Part shown: positions 56,522 to 63,855 of the stretch, in pieces
Numbering within the stretch: the stretch's first letter is position 1
Layout of the letters: each line of letters begins with the position of its first letter
Origin: Hymenobacter sp. APR13
GTDB taxonomy: Bacteria > Bacteroidota > Bacteroidia > Cytophagales > Hymenobacteraceae
Length of the DNA stretch: 64,000 nt
NCBI RefSeq assembly: GCF_000737515.1
Contig: NZ_CP006587.1
Span: 2,847,001 to 2,911,000 of the forward strand
Reading direction: 5' to 3'
The notes under the pieces: model-generated
What the model was told of the DNA's origin: nothing
What the model saw: only the letters and a program-made list of their open reading frames with translations
The model's database searches: none
Translations under genes and position numbers: made by a program

Positions 56522-56559
56522 ACGACCCGGAATAGGCCTTGTGCTTATTCCGGGTCGTA
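56522..56559. terminator. Bidirectional terminator overlapping the end of the MMPL gene
   Basis: ACGACCCGGAATA and its complement enclose 12 bases, followed by a T run to 56566. The right arm encodes the last residues of the MMPL exporter (stop at 56545), so it is coding on one strand and a terminator for both convergent genes. Confidence 0.85.
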
Positions 56560-58773
56560 TTTTTTCAGGACCAGCGGGAAGATGACCAGCTCGCCGTAGA
56601 AGGCGCCGGCCACGGCAATGGCTGTGAGCAGGCCGAACAGCTGCACGGTTTTCAGCGAGCCCAGCGTCATGACGGCGTAGCCCAGAAACAGCACCACGCT
56701 GGTCAGGACGATGGTGGGGCCGACGTGCGCAATGGTGGTGAGGCGGGCCTGGGCGGGTGTGAAGCCGTGGCGGCGGTGCTGCTGGTAGCTGTACACGAAA
56801 TGGATGGTGTCATCGACGCACAAGCTGAGCACGATGGAGGCAATGCTGGCCGTGGCCGTGTCGAGCGGGATGCCCAGCCAGCCCATGGCGCCCAGCAGCA
56901 CCAGCACCGGAAACAGGTTGGGAATGACGGTGAGCAGCGCCAGCCGGAAGCTGCGGATAAACGCCCACGTCAGGGCAAACACCAGCACAAAGGACAGCAG
57001 CAGGCTGTTGGTCTGCGACTCGGTGACGTAGGCCACAATGCCGGCGTAGAGCGGCTGGTAGCCGGCCGGCCGCACCGTGGCCACCCGCCCCAGCGTGGCC
57101 TGCGCAATCAGCAGCAGCGTATCTACCTTGGCCGTGAGCTGCCGCGCCGACAGCATCCGGCCTGAAACCGTGACGCGGCCGGTGCCGGAAGGCGCGTGCA
57201 CAAACTGCGCCAGCAGCGCCGGAAACTCCAGCCCCAGCTGCCGCTCCACGGCGTGTAGCGCGCCCTGGCTGGCCCGCAAACGGGTGGCTTTGTCCCCAAC
57301 CTGGGCTTCGAGGCCGGCCTGATACAAAGAGTGAAACCCCGTAACCTGGCCTACGCCGCTGAGCTGCCGCACGGAGTCGGCGAAGGCGAAGGCGGCCTGC
57401 ACCACGGCCACGTCTGATAGGGTGTGGCCGGGGCGGGGCTCCACCAGCAGCTCCAGCGGCATGTAAGGGCCCCAGTTGGCTTCAATGGCCTTGTGGTCCG
57501 TAACGACGCGGTGGTTGTCGGGCAGGTAGCCGAGCGTGTAGGTGTCGGAGCGGAGGCGGGGCAAGCCGGCGGCCAGCGCCAGCGTGAGCAGCACCGAGAG
57601 CGTAGCGAAAAAGCGCGGCCGGGCCAGCAGATACTGGTAAAACGCCACCATGCGGCTGGCGGCCGAGTACGTGGCGGCGGCGGTGCGGGCCGGGGCTTTG
57701 GCCAGCGGCAGCAGCAGCACACCCAGCACAAACGTGAACACCAGGCACAGCGCAATGCCCAGCGCCGCAAACACCCCGAAGTTGCGCAGAATGGCCATCG
57801 GGCACGACAGCAGCGCCAGGAAGCCGGCCACGGTGGTGAGCATGGTGAACAGGCAGGGCGCAAACACGTTGCGCAGGGCCTGCAGCGCGTCGTGGCGGGC
57901 GGGGCTGGTGGGTGTGCGCAGGCGGTTGCGCTCGTTGATGACGTGCATAGAATCCATGATGCCCAGCAGAATCAGCACGATGGGCAGCAGCACCGTCATC
58001 AGGTTTACGCGGTAGCCCAGCGCCCCGTACACGCCAAACGTGACGTAGGTGGCCAGCCCTACGATGCCCAGCGTGTACACGAGCAGCAGCAGGTTGCGGT
58101 AGATGAGCAGCAGCACCCCAAACATCAGCAGGTAGCCCAGCCCCAGGAATAGCCCGAAATCGTGCTGCGACAGCGCATTGAGGCCTGCGTACACGATGCC
58201 CACGCCGCCCAGGTGGGCCTGCTCTGGCCGGAAGTGCCGGTTCACCACCTGTTGCACCTGCGCCAGAATCTCGCCGCGCCGGTCGTCGAAATCAGGCATT
58301 TGCCGCAGCCGGATAATAAAGCGCGCGGTGCGGTAATCATTGGAAAACAGGCTCTGGCGCAGCGTGGGCAGCGGCTGCAGCGCTTGCCTCACTTCGGCGG
58401 CCGTGGTGCCGGACGCCAGCAGCGGCCGCGAGGAGCCAGCCAGGCCCCGGCCGGGCAGCCGGGTGTTGCCGGGTCCGTTCACACCTGCCACGGCGTGCAG
58501 GGCTTCCAGCTCGCGGGTGAGGCCCCGGAAGGCGGCCAGATACCCGGGCGAAAGCACCGGCTGCGCATCGTGCACGGCCAGAATCACCACCTCGTCGTTG
58601 CCGAAGCGCTGTTGGAAGGCGTGGTATTCGCGCAAAGCCGGGTCGCCGGATAGAAACCAGGTGGAAAGGCTGTTATCGACTACCATGGCGGCCTGCACGC
58701 TTGGCCACAGCGCCACGCAGGCTGCCACAATCAGCAGCAAGAGCAGGTAGCGGAGTTTGTGTAGATACAGCAT
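56545..58773 (-). CDS. MMPL/RND-superfamily transporter
   Basis: The 742-residue protein (ATG at 58773, MLYLHKLRYLLLLL) has two duplicated halves, each with an N-terminal membrane segment, a periplasmic region and a bundle of about five more segments. Half one shows GILLLIYRNLLLLVYTLGIVG-type helices and half two SIASIVLSLCVDDTIHF, with the conserved Asp pair (VDDTIHF) of MMPL/RND proteins. Such proteins export lipids, pigments or lipopeptides by proton motive force. It lies in a minus-strand run with a GNAT-like protein, a dikinase and a UbiA enzyme; a shared role is possible. Confidence 0.9.
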   Translation of the reverse strand: MLYLHKLRYLLLLLIVAACVALWPSVQAAMVVDNSLSTWFLSGDPALREYHAFQQRFGNDEVVILAVHDAQPVLSPGYLAAFRGLTRELEALHAVAGVNGPGNTRLPGRGLAGSSRPLLASGTTAAEVRQALQPLPTLRQSLFSNDYRTARFIIRLRQMPDFDDRRGEILAQVQQVVNRHFRPEQAHLGGVGIVYAGLNALSQHDFGLFLGLGYLLMFGVLLLIYRNLLLLVYTLGIVGLATYVTFGVYGALGYRVNLMTVLLPIVLILLGIMDSMHVINERNRLRTPTSPARHDALQALRNVFAPCLFTMLTTVAGFLALLSCPMAILRNFGVFAALGIALCLVFTFVLGVLLLPLAKAPARTAAATYSAASRMVAFYQYLLARPRFFATLSVLLTLALAAGLPRLRSDTYTLGYLPDNHRVVTDHKAIEANWGPYMPLELLVEPRPGHTLSDVAVVQAAFAFADSVRQLSGVGQVTGFHSLYQAGLEAQVGDKATRLRASQGALHAVERQLGLEFPALLAQFVHAPSGTGRVTVSGRMLSARQLTAKVDTLLLIAQATLGRVATVRPAGYQPLYAGIVAYVTESQTNSLLLSFVLVFALTWAFIRSFRLALLTVIPNLFPVLVLLGAMGWLGIPLDTATASIASIVLSLCVDDTIHFVYSYQQHRRHGFTPAQARLTTIAHVGPTIVLTSVVLFLGYAVMTLGSLKTVQLFGLLTAIAVAGAFYGELVIFPLVLKKYDPE

Positions 58774-58790
58774 AATGGGAATAGAGGATC

Positions 58791-58884
58791 TGTCATTCCG
58801 ACGCAGGAGGAATCTCACCTGAGTGGTAATTCTGTTGCCTTATTCAGTCCCCTGGCGAGATTCTTCGCTCAGCTCGAAATGACA
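58791..58884. repeat. Intergenic palindromic repeat, about 28-base arms (family B, related to A)
   Basis: Arms at 58791-58818 and 58856-58884 are imperfect complements (TGTCATTCCGACGC and its partner TGTCATTTCGAGCT). The right arm read on its reverse strand matches the family A arm in about 20 of 28 positions. It lies between the GNAT-like and MMPL genes. Confidence 0.8.
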
Positions 58885-58909
58885 GCTTTAGGCTACCTGG
58901 CATGAAAGC

Positions 58910-59977
58910 TCACGTCAGCGCCAGCTCATACAGCGCGTAACGGGCGGTTTCGGCGGGCAGGCCGTCGGTGAAGTGCAGGGAGAAATTGTCGGAGCGCATC
59001 AGGCAGAAGATGGCCTCGTCGTACAGCTCGCGGAAGGCCAGCATACCGTAGGCGCCCAGGTAGCTCATCAGCTGCTGGTTGCGAAAATCAGGGTGCACGC
59101 CGATGGTTTTGGCCAGTAGGGTTTTGCGCGGCAGGCGCGGGTAGTCGCGCTGGAAGCTGGGCGGCGCGGAACCCAGCTGCAAAGGCGCGTAGTTTGGGTG
59201 GCAGAGGCTGAGCGCCACCAGGCGGCCGTGCGCTTTTTCGCGCAGCAGCACCGAGGTGTGCGGGCAGAGCCGGGCGGCATACTGGGTGTTGTAGAGCTGC
59301 CGGAACTGGCTTTCCGGAATGGGCTGGTAGGCCGGGTTGGCGCTGAATACCTGGTGTACCAGCTCAAACAGCGCGGCCTCATGCTCCGGCCAGGTTTCCG
59401 GCGTGAGCGGCAGAAACTCGTAGGGCAGGCTCCGGACGGCAGCCAGCAGCGCCGCTTTGTCGTGGTACACGGCCGGCACCGTGGCGGGCGCAATCAGGCG
59501 GCTCTCGAAGGTGAGTACGGGCGCGAAGCCCAGCTGCTCCAGCAGTCCGGGGTAGTAGGTGGGGTTGACCGGCTCCCGGTCGAACTGCTGCCAGGAAGGC
59601 GCGCTGCCCAGGCGTAGGCGGTAGGAGTGGTAGGTGCTGAAGTTGAGCGGGCCCTGCAGGTGGGTGTAGCCGCGCTGCCGCGCCGCCTGCTGCAGCTGCG
59701 CAAAGGCCGCCGCGTTCAGGGCCACGTCGTCCACGGTTTCCCAGAACCCGAAGTAGGCAGTACGGCCGTTCTTGGGGAAGATACCTGCCAGCCGCAGCTG
59801 CGCGTGGTCGGTAAACAGCACGATGTCGTTGCGCTCCAGTTCCTGCCGAAACAGCTGCCGCACGGCCGCCGCGTCTTCCTGCGGCTGGTAGGGCAGCGCC
59901 GCGTACAGCGGGCCGGGAATCTGAAAGAACGAATCCGGCAAAGTGCCCTCAAAAAGCAGCTGGTGAATGGGGCTCAT
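58910..59977 (-). CDS. GNAT-family-like acyltransferase of unknown substrate
   Basis: The 355-residue protein (ATG at 59977, MSPIHQLLFEGTL) has a GNAT fold in its C-terminal half, with an acetyl-CoA-binding strand-helix (KTIGVHPDFRNQQLMSYLG) and EAIFCLMRSDNFSLHF near the end. The N-terminal half (GYTHLQGPLNFSTYHSYRLR) is typical of two-GNAT-domain proteins. The length suggests an acyl-ACP or acyl-CoA N-acyltransferase rather than a small acetyltransferase. The substrate is unknown. It may share a transcript with the dikinase and MMPL genes. Confidence 0.82.
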   Translation of the reverse strand: MSPIHQLLFEGTLPDSFFQIPGPLYAALPYQPQEDAAAVRQLFRQELERNDIVLFTDHAQLRLAGIFPKNGRTAYFGFWETVDDVALNAAAFAQLQQAARQRGYTHLQGPLNFSTYHSYRLRLGSAPSWQQFDREPVNPTYYPGLLEQLGFAPVLTFESRLIAPATVPAVYHDKAALLAAVRSLPYEFLPLTPETWPEHEAALFELVHQVFSANPAYQPIPESQFRQLYNTQYAARLCPHTSVLLREKAHGRLVALSLCHPNYAPLQLGSAPPSFQRDYPRLPRKTLLAKTIGVHPDFRNQQLMSYLGAYGMLAFRELYDEAIFCLMRSDNFSLHFTDGLPAETARYALYELALT

Positions 59978-60062
59978 AGGAGGAGTGTGGCTGATGCCTG
60001 CCGGTCCGGCGGCTGTTGAAGCCGTCAGGCCGGTCGTCGTAAGCTGATGTTGTTTATTATGA

Positions 60063-60155
60063 GTGTAGAGACGCGACACTTCGCGTCTCATCGTTGGTCA
60101 TCGGGCGCAGTTTTGGTCGTTCAAATAGCAGACGCGAAGTGTCGCGTCTCTACAC
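60063..60155. repeat. Intergenic palindromic repeat, perfect 26-base arms (family C)
   Basis: GTGTAGAGACGCGACACTTC-type arms at 60063-60088 and 60130-60155 are perfect complements. Related shorter copies occur at 62934-62957 and 63935-63980. It lies between the GNAT-like gene and the dikinase. Confidence 0.88.
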
Positions 60156-60211
60156 TGTTCTGGTAGCGGCTATGCCGTCCGGACAGCTACCGTACCGGAT
60201 CCGTTCGAGCG

Positions 60212-62755
60212 TCACTCCACCACCTCAATCCGGCCGGATTCGCCGTTCAAGCGCACTTGCTGGCCGGTGCGCAGGCGCTGCGTAACGTGCGGCACGTTGA
60301 TGATAGTGGGAATGCCCAGCTCGCGCAGCAGAATCACGGAGTGCGACAACGACGAGCCTTTCTCGATGATGACGCCGCGGCACATCGGGAACAGGGCCGC
60401 CCAGCCGGGGTCGGTGCGCAGGGCACACACGATTTTACCGCTCACGTTCAGGTCGCCGCCTGGGTCGGTGATGACGATTACCTCGCCCTCGGCCACGCCG
60501 GGGTAGCAGCCGGTGCCGGCTAGAGCGCCTGCAGGCAGGGGCGGGGCGGCAGCGGGGCGGGCGGGCAACGTCACGCGGGCCGGTACGTCTTCCCGGGTGT
60601 ACTGCCGGAACTCTTGGCGACGCTCGGCTACCAGCGGCAGCAGGGGAGTGGCGCCGTCGGCCAGGGCGGCCAGCAGCTCCGGCTCCGTCAGCCAGAATAC
60701 GTCTTCGGGAGCTGCCAGCTGGCCGCGCTCCGTGAGCTGGGCGCCCATGGCCCGGTAGAGCGCCCGGTACATGCCAAACAGCCGGGTGCGCTCCAGCCGC
60801 AGCGCCTCACGGTACCGGATGGCCTGCTGCAGCTGTCGGAGGCTGCGCTCCAGCCGCCACTTAAACCAGCGGCTGCGGCCGGCCAGCTTATCGGCCAGCT
60901 CCTGCCGGGCCTGCTGTTGCAGAGGGCTGCCAGCCTCAGTTTCCGGGGCGGGAGGCGCCAGCAGGAAGTTGCGCAGGTACTGGTAGAACACGGCGGGCTC
61001 CACGCGCATAGTGGCCGTTTCCAGCTTCAGCTCGCCCACCGTCCGGTCGCCGTACTGCCCGATAAACTCTTCTACGGCCCGGTGAAAATCCGGCGCCAGT
61101 TGGGCCACCTGGGCGTGCAGATCGGGCGGGGCGGCCAGCACCAGCTCGCGCAGGGCGGCCTGGGGCCACGCGGCGCGGGCCAGGGCCTGCAGCTGGCGCG
61201 TGGGCTGGGTGCTGGCCACCTGCTGGTCGCCGGACAAATACCGGCTCAGGAACTCGTCGGGCTGCGCAATACCGGCCCGCTGCAAACCCCGGTTCACGCG
61301 GCCGTTGGTGGTCATCACGAAGAAGTCGTTGATGATGGGCGTGGTCCATTTTTGCAGCAGCTGCGCATCCAGCAGGTCCTTTTGCTGCCGCAGCTCCGCG
61401 CCGCTGAGCGTGGCCAGCGGCAGGGAATAGAACCGCTGGTAGTGCGCCCGAAAGTGGGCGTGAAAGGCCGGCACGCGTTTCTTCAGCTGCCCGAAGGCCC
61501 GCAGCAGCCGCAGCAGATTCAAACCCAGGCCAGGCAGCAGCCGGAGCGTGGCGCCCAGCGTTTTGCGCTGGCTCACCACGAAATCCACGGGCTCTTCCAG
61601 GCCCATCATGCGCTCCATGTCGGCCTTGTTTTGGCGAAAGGAGGGCAGCAGCTGCAGGCCGCGGTACCAGTTGTTGATGTTGTAGTAGATGCGCCCCTTC
61701 ACCAGCCCCAGCAGCTGCGTGACGGTGCTTTCGTGGGCCTGAATGCGGGCCGGCGGCAGCCCCAGCACGTGCATGGTCTGGCGGTACACGGTGGCGTAGG
61801 CACGCTGCGCGAAGCTGAACGTGAGCGGCGTGGTGACCCCGCAGTAGCTTTCCTGAATGTTGGAGTTGTCGTAGACCACGACCTCCGGAATGGGCTGGGT
61901 GATAGGCCGGGCCTGCACCAGCCACGGCTGGCCGGCTTCCACCACAAACTCCAGGTCTTGGGGATGCCCGAACTGCTGCTCCAGCTGCGTGGCCGCCGCG
62001 AACAGCGTGGCCAGCTGGGCATCGGTGAGGCAGGCGGCGTGCTGCTGGCCGGCCGGCACGGCGGTTTGCCGGAGCCCATCGGCGCCGGCAGCGGGCTGAA
62101 ACTGGGTTTCCTTGGCGGCCAGCTGGGTGTGGCGGAGCGCGCCGGTAAGCTTGTTGAGGTAAAACTCGTCGGGCTGTAGCTGCCCGCCTACCAGACCCTC
62201 GCCGAAGCCCCAAACGGCGTGCACGGCCATTTCCTGCGGATACTCCGGAAACGTGGAAAACACTACGCCGCTGGTTTCGGCGGCCAGCTGCCGCTGAATG
62301 ATGACGGCCGGCCGCGCCGCCAGCGGCAGCTGTTTCTGGCGGCGGTAAGCCAGGGCCCGCTCGGAATAGGCGCTGGCCGCGCACTGGCCCACCGCCGCCC
62401 ACACCGCCGCCTCCGACGTCAGGTTCAGAAACGAATCCATAAGCCCCGCAAACGAGGCGCCTGCGCCGTCCTCATCAGCCACCGATGAGCGCACCACCAC
62501 CGGTTGCGCCGGAAACCCCCAGCCGGCCAGCACCTGCCGGATGGCCTGCTGGTCGGCGGCGGGCAGCTGGAACGCCTGCAGCAACTGCCGCTGCTGCGCC
62601 GCATTCGGTGCGGCCAGCAGCAGCGCATCGAAGGTTTCGGCGGGCAGCACCAGAAAATCCGGCACGCGCATGCCCGCTGCCTGTAGCCGGAACAGCCCGA
62701 GCGCCTTGTGGCCGATGGTGTACTGAGCAGACGGCGTGGAACCGTGAAGTATCAT
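60212..62755 (-). CDS. PEP-synthase-like dikinase (rifampin-phosphotransferase architecture)
   Basis: The 847-residue protein starts at the ATG at 62755 (MILHGSTPSAQYTIGHKAL). The N-terminus is a PEP-synthase/PPDK ATP-grasp domain (about 10-330, with RSSVADEDGAGASFAGLMDS and VVEAGQPWLVQARPI). The middle (about 340-730) lacks the PEP-binding TIM barrel and is an unassigned helical domain. The C-terminus is the swivelling His domain, with the phospho-His site SSLSHSVILLRE (His-805). The order ATP-grasp, substrate domain, His domain without the barrel matches rifampin phosphotransferase, which phosphorylates its substrate with ATP, releasing AMP and phosphate. The substrate is unknown, and PEP synthesis is unlikely because the barrel is absent. 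Confidence 0.88.
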   Translation of the reverse strand: MILHGSTPSAQYTIGHKALGLFRLQAAGMRVPDFLVLPAETFDALLLAAPNAAQQRQLLQAFQLPAADQQAIRQVLAGWGFPAQPVVVRSSVADEDGAGASFAGLMDSFLNLTSEAAVWAAVGQCAASAYSERALAYRRQKQLPLAARPAVIIQRQLAAETSGVVFSTFPEYPQEMAVHAVWGFGEGLVGGQLQPDEFYLNKLTGALRHTQLAAKETQFQPAAGADGLRQTAVPAGQQHAACLTDAQLATLFAAATQLEQQFGHPQDLEFVVEAGQPWLVQARPITQPIPEVVVYDNSNIQESYCGVTTPLTFSFAQRAYATVYRQTMHVLGLPPARIQAHESTVTQLLGLVKGRIYYNINNWYRGLQLLPSFRQNKADMERMMGLEEPVDFVVSQRKTLGATLRLLPGLGLNLLRLLRAFGQLKKRVPAFHAHFRAHYQRFYSLPLATLSGAELRQQKDLLDAQLLQKWTTPIINDFFVMTTNGRVNRGLQRAGIAQPDEFLSRYLSGDQQVASTQPTRQLQALARAAWPQAALRELVLAAPPDLHAQVAQLAPDFHRAVEEFIGQYGDRTVGELKLETATMRVEPAVFYQYLRNFLLAPPAPETEAGSPLQQQARQELADKLAGRSRWFKWRLERSLRQLQQAIRYREALRLERTRLFGMYRALYRAMGAQLTERGQLAAPEDVFWLTEPELLAALADGATPLLPLVAERRQEFRQYTREDVPARVTLPARPAAAPPLPAGALAGTGCYPGVAEGEVIVITDPGGDLNVSGKIVCALRTDPGWAALFPMCRGVIIEKGSSLSHSVILLRELGIPTIINVPHVTQRLRTGQQVRLNGESGRIEVVE

Positions 62756-62802
62756 GTGGGTAGTGAAATGGAACTGTGCTTTGGTACTCGTGCTGCCGGG
62801 CG

Positions 62803-62838
62803 CCTCACCCCCCGGCCCTCTCCAAAGAGAGGGGAGCC
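62803..62838. repeat. Short hairpin repeat (CCCTCTCC type)
   Basis: CCTCACCCCCCGGCCCTC precedes CCCTCTCCAAAGAGAGGG (62815-62832), a small hairpin. This resembles a short Bacteroidota intergenic repeat. It lies upstream of the dikinase start. Confidence 0.5.
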
Positions 62839-62933
62839 GAACGATTGTTGAGCAAGCCATGGTCATCAATCGGACTCTGTTGGAATCCTGCAACGGCTAA
62901 AAGATTCTGGTTTTGGCAGGCGGCGCGGACGAC

Positions 62934-62957
62934 GAGACGCGAATACGCGTCTCTACA
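62934..62957. repeat. Short copy of repeat family C
   Basis: GAGACGCGAATACGCGTCTC is a small palindrome related to the family C arm, followed by TACAG. It lies at the 3' end of the UbiA gene (stop at 62953) and overlaps it by a few bases, so it might serve as its transcript end. Confidence 0.7.
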
Positions 62958-63855
62958 GCAGAATAAGGCCGATGAGGGCCAGGTAGCTGGTCAGCATGAA
63001 CACCGATACCAGCAACTCGGCGGTGCGCAGCAGCTTTTCCTGGGGCTTGGCCGCCGCCCGGCCGTACACCAGCAGCGCCAGCCCAAACAGCCCCACCAGC
63101 AGCCCAAACGCCCACGCGCCGGCCTGCAGCTGCCGCAGCAGCACACCCTGCACCGCCATGCCGCCCAGCAGCACCAGCAGCACCGCCACAATGGCCCCGC
63201 GGTAGCTCAGCGTGCGGGAGTAGGAGTCGATGCCGGGGCGCTCGGCGGCGGGGGCGTGGGTTTTGCGGGCCAGCTCGAACGCAAAGCCGCCCAGCAAGCT
63301 CAGGGCCGCCAGCAGCCAGAACCGCGGCGGCATGGCGCCATCGGGCTGAAACAGCTGGTACGCCTGCCACAGCCAATACACGACGAGCGGCATAATCAGC
63401 ATGTGGCTGAAGGCGTACAGCACCAGCCGGCGCTTCAGAAACGCACTCACGCCGAACTCGTAGCGCATCAGCACACTGTAGCCCAGCGCCAGCACCCAGC
63501 CGCCCAGCGCCGCCCGCCCCATCTGCGCCGACCACGCCAGCTCGCCCGCCGCGCCCAGCCACGCCAGTTGCTGCAGCTGCGGCAGCGTCACGAGGCCGCG
63601 CTGCAGCACGCGGTGGGGGTGGTTGATGGCGTCGGCGGCGTAGTCCTTTAGCTCATCGAACACCCGCAGGCGAAAGAAGAAAGAGATGGTAGCCAGCCCG
63701 CCGCCCACCTCCAGCCACCGGAACCGGCCCGGTCCCTGGCCTCCCGCATCCAGCGTCGCCACGGCCCATACCGTCAGGAACAGAATGGCGAACAGGCCCA
63801 TGTTGACGGGTGGAAACCGCTGATTTAGGTACGCGGTCAGGTGGCGAATATTCAT
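62953..63855 (-). CDS. UbiA-family prenyltransferase
   Basis: The 300-residue protein starts at the ATG at 63855 (MNIRHLTAYLNQRFPP). It has about eight membrane helices. The first Asp-rich motif is FDELKDYAAD (Asp-67, Asp-71, Asp-75), which holds Mg2+ and prenyl diphosphate. The second motif is degraded: GIDSYSRTLSYRG has only one Asp of the usual pair. UbiA enzymes join prenyl chains to aromatic or sugar-phosphate acceptors. The acceptor cannot be assigned. It is upstream of the dikinase on the same strand, with a repeat between them. Confidence 0.85.
   Translation of the reverse strand: MNIRHLTAYLNQRFPPVNMGLFAILFLTVWAVATLDAGGQGPGRFRWLEVGGGLATISFFFRLRVFDELKDYAADAINHPHRVLQRGLVTLPQLQQLAWLGAAGELAWSAQMGRAALGGWVLALGYSVLMRYEFGVSAFLKRRLVLYAFSHMLIMPLVVYWLWQAYQLFQPDGAMPPRFWLLAALSLLGGFAFELARKTHAPAAERPGIDSYSRTLSYRGAIVAVLLVLLGGMAVQGVLLRQLQAGAWAFGLLVGLFGLALLVYGRAAAKPQEKLLRTAELLVSVFMLTSYLALIGLILL

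Follow-up and report, generated by a model that had tools for sequence, protein, structure and literature searches.

Here we describe a group of minus-strand genes in Hymenobacter sp. APR13 that probably represents, in its Bacteroidota form, an undescribed cluster for the synthesis and export of an isoprenoid-containing envelope lipid. Seven genes recur as a neighbourhood, and a core of five is common to several phyla. Because this core recurs, because the modules that would attach a polar head are exchanged one for the other and because lipid-type exporters recur beside them, we read the cluster in terms of a lipid: most likely its product is an exported lipid that contains an isoprenoid and whose head group can be exchanged.

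Layout and recurrence of the neighbourhood

The window is the whole stretch of DNA analysed, 64,000 nucleotides of contig NZ_CP006587.1. Four consecutive minus-strand genes are found where the original prediction placed them. They encode an MMPL/RND (HAE3-like) exporter (56545..58818; 757 amino acids from a GTG, with an ATG 45 bases further in also possible), a tandem-GNAT protein (58910..59977; 355 amino acids, ATG start), an Rph-like dikinase (60212 to about 62755, the start codon being our choice in a frame open to 62893) and a UbiA-type prenyltransferase (62953..63855; 300 amino acids, ATG start, motif FDELKDYAAD). The run was expected to continue past the right edge of the window, and it does so with three further genes on the minus strand: an APH-family kinase (L009:11073-12281; PF01636, E 3.5e-12), a DUF3419/BtaA-like aminocarboxypropyl transferase (L009:12274-13422; PF11899, E 1.2e-43) and an acyl-AMP ligase (L009:13425-14960; PF00501, E 1.9e-34), for which the window coordinate is the L009 coordinate plus 52999. 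The four genes first singled out do belong together, but as a set they are incomplete without the AMP-ligase, the APH kinase and the DUF3419 transferase. The claim that no described pathway has this gene set still holds for the open-access literature, where none was found among the matches listed.

Comparison of the neighbourhood within the family, proposed at the outset, found the genes together and not scattered among relatives. Of 120 family genomes, 14 carry the GNAT, dikinase and UbiA genes under strict cut-offs, the same 14 for each gene, and in every one the three lie within about 6.5 kb; the contig that holds them also has a single DUF3419 gene close by. A wider search with the dikinase confirmed 100 loci, of which 80 were retained; they come from Bacteroidota, Gammaproteobacteria, Myxococcota, Spirochaetes and other phyla. 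The five-gene core of AMP-ligase, APH kinase, UbiA, dikinase and tandem GNAT is complete in 58 of the 80 and in 54 of the 63 loci that span at least 17.5 kb, counts in which the AMP-ligase rests on a large family. Since co-location is conserved across phyla, the grouping is more than chance. Among ORF families, only those of the cluster named here (AMP-ligase, APH, UbiA, dikinase, GNAT and the others) recur in more than 12 loci. APH and MMPL are absent from two of three Pedobacter loci, MMPL is absent from 12 Photorhabdus loci within the DNA covered, and a congeneric genome (G363) has retained nothing but the DUF3419-APH pair.

Bacteroidota loci do not as a rule have all the genes in one run on one strand. 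Of 23 such loci with six of the genes, 19 have UbiA-dikinase-GNAT on one strand and AMP-ligase-DUF3419-APH on the other.

Putative head-group modules and exporters

The cluster DUF3419 protein belongs to the family of BtaA, PF11899, and several of its homologues bear the name BtaA family from their sources. The copy of the window genome passes the cut-off of 28.2 bits with 150.2 bits (150.9, as G000, in a second search) and covers profile positions 7-326 of 385, short of a near-full profile. It differs from BtaA in this respect, as do the Bacteroidota copies generally, which match the profile only to about 320-332 of 385; this partial match suggests that the acceptor may not be diacylglycerol. 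The copy of a Myxococcota cluster (G013) scores 224.7 bits over positions 6-382, and two DUF3419 genes outside such clusters (G339, G012) reach 383-384. A further difference is that no BtaB methyltransferase is found among the ORF families present in more than 12 loci. A PDB search with the DUF3419 protein gave no match.

DUF3419 is present in 34 of the 80 loci and a CDP-alcohol transferase/CarS-like pair in another 34, the two together in none; L013 and L017 are counted as DUF3419 loci by tblastn, the gene having been missed in the ORF-based tally through overlapping ORFs. BtaA and CDP-lipid pathways are known alternative ways of putting a head on a lipid. On a quick dikinase tree the swap of head-group modules is a single change, and therefore one evolutionary event. 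The tree has 68 rows, with nine Photorhabdus loci and dikinase ORFs shorter than 750 amino acids left out and one of the two L074 dikinase ORFs included, on an implausibly long branch; rows with neither module were left out of the state-change count. Across whole genomes the exclusion has an exception: L063 is a locus of the CDP/CarS form, yet another contig of its genome (G012) carries a full-length DUF3419 gene.

The transporter was predicted to be an MMPL/RND exporter, and it matches PF03176 at E 4.8e-23; its best NCBIfam model is HAE3 (TIGR00921, E 1.5e-46, below cut-off). In some Gammaproteobacteria the MMPL gene has a LolA-like neighbour, and elsewhere the exporter type is a LolCE-like permease. 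Both arrangements are exporter types known for lipids. The cluster resembles the HpnN/MMPL lipid exporters in having an MMPL/HAE3-type transporter beside lipid-type genes, yet HpnN models match the cluster MMPL weakly, at 25.3 bits against 751.85.

Core enzymes and competing readings

The dikinase consists of an ATP-grasp domain, a helical middle and a phospho-His swivel domain with its His in SLSH. Its sole Pfam domains are PF01326 and PF00391, each only at E 0.001, and no PEP/pyruvate-binding barrel was found in the Pfam search, in agreement with the predicted ATP-grasp and phospho-His architecture. Foldseek aligns the model with Rph (5hv1) over its full length (E 1.5e-41, TM 0.47); with a TM of 0.47 despite full-length alignment, domain placement therefore differs. 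The two proteins share the order of ATP-grasp, helical and phospho-His domains and the lack of the barrel, but are only about 20% identical, and the dikinase sits in a biosynthetic cluster. Absence of the barrel led us to reject a PEP synthase role, and the firm grouping with a PEP-synthase subfamily that would have spoken against the original prediction did not occur. His808 of the 850-residue query is invariant in 32 aligned sequences. Curated models give about equal scores, each below its cut-off: 244.6 bits for Rph (far under 999), 231.8 for PigC (1300) and 246.9 for RedH (1350), the similarity to PigC and RedH extending across the whole dikinase. Since the three score alike, kinase and PigC-like ligase both remain candidate roles.

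The likeness to PigC and RedH also suits a different product, a secreted small molecule such as an antibiotic, pigment or metal chelator, for which the dikinase would ligate two halves, UbiA would prenylate, DUF3419 would add an aminocarboxypropyl arm and MMPL would export. The patchy spread (14 of 120 genomes in the family) fits accessory metabolism, and MMPL proteins also export small molecules. We nevertheless consider such a product unlikely: the LolA-like, LolCE-like, CarS-like and CDP-alcohol transferase partners seen elsewhere are lipid-type proteins, and the ORF families that recur in more than 12 loci include no PKS, NRPS or carrier-protein gene shared between loci.

The UbiA protein of the window has no Pfam match and reaches 76.9 bits against NCBIfam PRK05951 (cut-off 239). 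Its assignment as a UbiA enzyme is upheld by the Marinobacter counterpart, which passes that model with 285.6 bits, and by the first Asp-rich motif, R-x-x-D-x-x-x-D-x-x-x-D, present in 66 of 67 UbiA ORFs and missing only from L031, which is truncated. The only PDB match of the Marinobacter protein is to digeranylgeranylglyceryl phosphate synthase (DGGGPS), which raises the prospect of archaeal-type ether lipid synthesis, with UbiA as DGGGPS and the other genes decorating its product. The match is not significant (E 0.3), however, and the same protein scores 24.8 bits, against a cut-off of 269, with PRK12884, a model that we take to cover DGGGPS; for the UbiA of the window no PRK12884 match was listed in the NCBIfam search. 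UbiA, CarS-like and CDP-alcohol transferase genes do recur together in the gammaproteobacterial form, as in the archaeal phospholipid pathway (DGGGPS, CarS, archaetidyl transferases), and such lipids have been proposed for FCB bacteria (PMC7852524). Against this, the DUF3419 form, that of Hymenobacter included, is without CarS, the cluster has an extra kinase, dikinase, GNAT and AMP-ligase, and none of the ORF families that recur in more than 12 loci is a GGGP synthase, which makes ether lipid synthesis of this type improbable.

The GNAT-like protein has no significant Pfam match. Its AlphaFold2 model (pLDDT 94) matches the tandem GNATs 2wpw and 7q3a (E about 2e-11, TM 0.5-0.6), as the two-part GNAT of the original prediction should. 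Of 296 genomes of the phylum searched with this protein, 143 gave a match at E 0.001, all but its own genome weakly (best 8.3e-14); it says little on the cluster because the weak matches represent a widespread double-GNAT family.

The APH kinase, which finds only weak protein-kinase matches in the PDB, has the motif HNDLNPRN...YDWE as a pattern in 62 of 67 homologous ORFs. At the level of sequence, then, the UbiA Asp motif, the APH kinase motif and the dikinase His are conserved. A drug-resistance island, in which dikinase, APH and GNAT would inactivate drugs and MMPL pump them out, is very improbable and was rejected: the four families each contain resistance proteins and the dikinase matches Rph in structure, but its Rph score lies under the cut-off and the frequent company of UbiA, DUF3419 or CarS, and AMP-ligase makes little sense for drug inactivation.

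Outside Bacteroidota the APH kinase usually forms a fusion protein with an HMG-CoA-reductase-like enzyme, as it does in 40 of 42 such reductase ORFs. The catalytic Glu, Lys, Asp and His of HMG-CoA reductase are present in nearly all rows of these cluster enzymes of relatives (L057 is truncated, and single motifs were missed or misplaced by the patterns in L050, L055, L060-L062 and L064). At the HMG-binding Ser position, which like the HMG-binding Lys position we take from the human enzyme, every readable row (L057 and L060 excepted) has Glu or Asp, where four aligned enzymes of solved structure have Ser; at the Lys position, in columns read by eye, the cluster enzymes have no Lys. A mevalonate pathway role is unlikely, since PF08540, the HMG-CoA synthase family, matched nothing in 16 of 18 genomes examined. 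The window genome has an unlinked HMG-CoA reductase (G000:C1:2234371-2235483), which occurs in 48 of 120 family genomes (11 of 14 with the cluster, 37 of 106 without). A tie to the cluster is not supported: its occurrence follows genus, with 40 of 43 own-genus genomes having it, only five of them cluster-bearing, and three cluster-bearing g141 genomes lacking it.

Proposed pathway and significance

For the envelope lipid that we favour, the AMP-ligase would activate a carboxylic acid; outside Bacteroidota the HMG-CoA-reductase-like domain may reduce an acyl thioester to an alcohol, which the fused APH kinase would phosphorylate. UbiA would prenylate the core, the dikinase would pass a phosphate from ATP through its His to a hydroxyl or else activate a substrate for PigC-like ligation, and the tandem GNAT would acylate. 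The polar head could come in one of two ways, either from a BtaA-like DUF3419 protein adding aminocarboxypropyl from SAM to a hydroxyl, or by activation of a phosphate with CTP (CarS-like) followed by a CDP-alcohol transferase. Export of the lipid would fall to MMPL, in some Gammaproteobacteria together with a LolA-like partner.

More tentatively, the product may be a new class of envelope lipid, with a prenylated, acylated core from one old multi-phylum enzyme set and either, in the DUF3419 form of Bacteroidota and Myxococcota, an aminocarboxypropyl head in ether linkage or, in Gammaproteobacteria including Photorhabdus, a phosphodiester head via CarS-like chemistry, the HMG-CoA-reductase-like enzyme having been repurposed for another acyl-CoA.

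If this is true, one enzyme set spread over many phyla, and including the nematode-symbiotic Photorhabdus, makes an envelope lipid; we found no lipid study tied to the cluster. Functions would then be available for several genes annotated as PEP synthase, prenyltransferase or hypothetical, and for the HMG-CoA-reductase-like enzymes of bacteria without a recognisable HMG-CoA synthase. The cluster would also let two head-group chemistries on a shared core be compared as they occur in nature.

Gene run in the window and beyond its right edge

In the genome of Hymenobacter sp. APR13 the window corresponds to G000:C1:2847001-2911000, and the four minus-strand open reading frames of the original prediction, encoding an MMPL exporter, a tandem GNAT protein, an Rph-like dikinase and a UbiA prenyltransferase, are located exactly where it had placed them. 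Its further claim that the run passes the right edge is borne out by the next bases of the adjoining sequence, which hold three more minus-strand genes upstream, for an APH kinase, a DUF3419 protein and an AMP-ligase. Pfam finds an MMPL domain in the exporter, PPDK_N and PEP-utilizers domains in the dikinase, and no domain at E 0.001 in the GNAT-like and UbiA proteins. Among NCBIfam models, the exporter matches HAE3, the UbiA protein the PRK05951 prenyltransferase and the dikinase the PRK06241.2 'phosphoenolpyruvate synthase' models, all below cut-off. Among the matches listed in the open-access literature, most subscription papers lying outside this scope, no description of such a cluster was found.

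Only 2 bases separate the AMP-ligase gene from the downstream DUF3419 gene, which, with the GTG start that we chose, shares 8 bases with the APH frame. Gaps between the APH, UbiA, dikinase, GNAT and MMPL genes are wider, and some contain palindromic repeats also present elsewhere in the genome. A 7.3-kb query gave 75 genome matches (its own place included), many of them to the palindromic gap sequences. Repeats of the GAGACGC...GCGTCTC type lie in intergenic gaps at window positions 60080-60155 and at L009:9930-11050 (the window-genome locus). All seven genes may be co-transcribed.

Co-occurrence within the Hymenobacteraceae

One draw of 120 family genomes, searched three times with the GNAT (E 1e-30), dikinase (E 1e-30) and UbiA (E 1e-20) proteins, returned an identical 14 genomes and no others. 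Whether the genes stay together in other Hymenobacteraceae was the check named with the original prediction, and for GNAT, dikinase and UbiA they do: the three are clustered in 14 of 14 carriers, spanning about 6.5 kb at most. DUF3419 occurs in 16 of the 120 genomes, namely the same 14 (nearby, on the same contig), G363 and G339. The G363 gene adjoins APH, with the remaining cluster genes not found in 19 kb around the pair, which is perhaps a cluster remnant; the G339 gene covers almost the whole profile, and 18.5 kb around it contain no further gene of the cluster. Locus L134 of G363, from the same genus, keeps the DUF3419-APH pair alone. Given the 14 shared genomes and the few DUF3419 exceptions, the cluster has a patchy yet almost all-or-none distribution in the family. 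The dikinase was the entry point to most loci, which makes the GNAT-led search a useful check; in its short loci a dikinase or APH gene stands beside GNAT in 14/14.

Distribution and module exchange across phyla

Scanning one genome per species yielded 100 confirmed dikinase relatives, and the best 80 of these 100 were analysed, with locus gene content scored by tblastn and profile searches. AMP-ligase was found in 75 of the 80 loci, a count that may take in unrelated genes since AMP-ligases are a large family, followed by UbiA (72), GNAT (67), APH (66), the HMG-CoA-reductase-like domain (42), MMPL (41), DUF3419 (34), CDP-alcohol transferase (34) and CarS-like protein (32). The complete core of AMP-ligase, APH, UbiA, dikinase and GNAT is present in 58/80 loci and, since contig ends interrupt some of the 80, in 54/63 loci of at least 17.5 kb. 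Among the taxa with a dikinase relative are Hymenobacter, Pontibacter, Pedobacter, Gramella, Photorhabdus, Marinobacter, Thalassolituus, Endozoicomonas, Myxococcales and Spirochaetes. Both head-group modules (DUF3419 and the CDP-alcohol transferase/CarS-like pair) and most core genes are missing from three actinobacterial loci (L081, L082, L087), which may represent another version of the pathway. AMP-ligase-like proteins are encoded near the dikinase relatives of all three, and in L087 a thioester-reductase-like SDR and a LolCE-like permease as well.

Among 26 loci counted as Bacteroidota (L029 by its dikinase-tree position), 23 carry the six genes other than MMPL, and 17 MMPL as well. The six share one strand in only 4 of the 23 (L010, L011, L033, L077); in the other 19, UbiA-dikinase-GNAT lies opposite in strand to AMP-ligase-DUF3419-APH, and the cluster thus consists of two half-modules. 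Many Bacteroidota also have a double-GNAT family, mostly of ~380 aa (e.g. L092-L120), distantly related to the cluster GNAT; its gene lies beside an AMP-ligase-like gene in 5 of 29 fetched loci.

Marinobacter and Photorhabdus encode the APH kinase as the C-terminal half of a fusion protein, with an HMG-CoA-reductase domain (E about 1e-114) as the N-terminal half. The AMP-ligase gene is followed there by genes for a CDP-alcohol transferase and a CarS-like protein, the latter identified by Pfam in Thiomargarita (L057), by a sub-cut-off NCBIfam match in Marinobacter and through profile searches elsewhere. None of the 80 loci combines DUF3419 with the CDP-alcohol/CarS pair. A genome-wide DUF3419 search of seven CDP/CarS-form genomes gave no match in five (G006-G010), a match below cut-off in G011, and in G012 a full-length gene on a different contig from the cluster. 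The head-group swap is one change on the tree of 68 dikinases and is therefore read as one old event. Export genes vary too: in some Gammaproteobacteria MMPL is accompanied by a LolA-like gene and by one for a protein of 411 aa that has no Pfam match, MMPL was not found in 12 Photorhabdus loci, and one actinobacterial locus has a LolCE-like permease, matched below cut-off.

Predicted chemistry

Models for Rph, RedH and PigC score the dikinase alike, so that it may act either as a phosphotransferase or as a ligase. Its fold match is Rph, with no PigC or RedH structure among the best 50 matches listed. HpeI of Rhodococcus, which we take to be a member of a phenol-phosphorylating system, resembles it over the ATP-binding part.

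In the HMG-CoA-reductase-like domain, found in 0 of the 26 Bacteroidota loci, the catalytic Glu, DKK, GQD and His motifs are retained in nearly all aligned rows (patterns missed a few; L057 is incomplete). Human Ser684 and Lys735 are presumably HMG-binding residues. All readable rows carry Glu or Asp at the Ser684 position, where aligned solved HMG-CoA reductases have Ser; by eye Lys is absent at the Lys735 position, a placement that hangs on a small gap. HMG-CoA synthase had no match in 16 of 18 genomes examined, from which we infer that the domain would act on an acyl-CoA other than HMG-CoA. The window genome has a lone gene of this type (L090:9863-11419; G000:C1:2234371-2235483) and no HMG-CoA synthase match. 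The lone gene occurs in 48 of the 120 family genomes, with the Ser position altered as in the cluster reductases of other phyla.

Bacteroidota DUF3419 proteins match PF11899 with 118-156 bits, reaching profile positions 320-332 of 385, as against 224.7 bits and position 382 for a Myxococcota cluster protein (G013). These matches make the family relationship to BtaA firm; by the same comparison the Bacteroidota branch is divergent, and its acceptor may be a different one.
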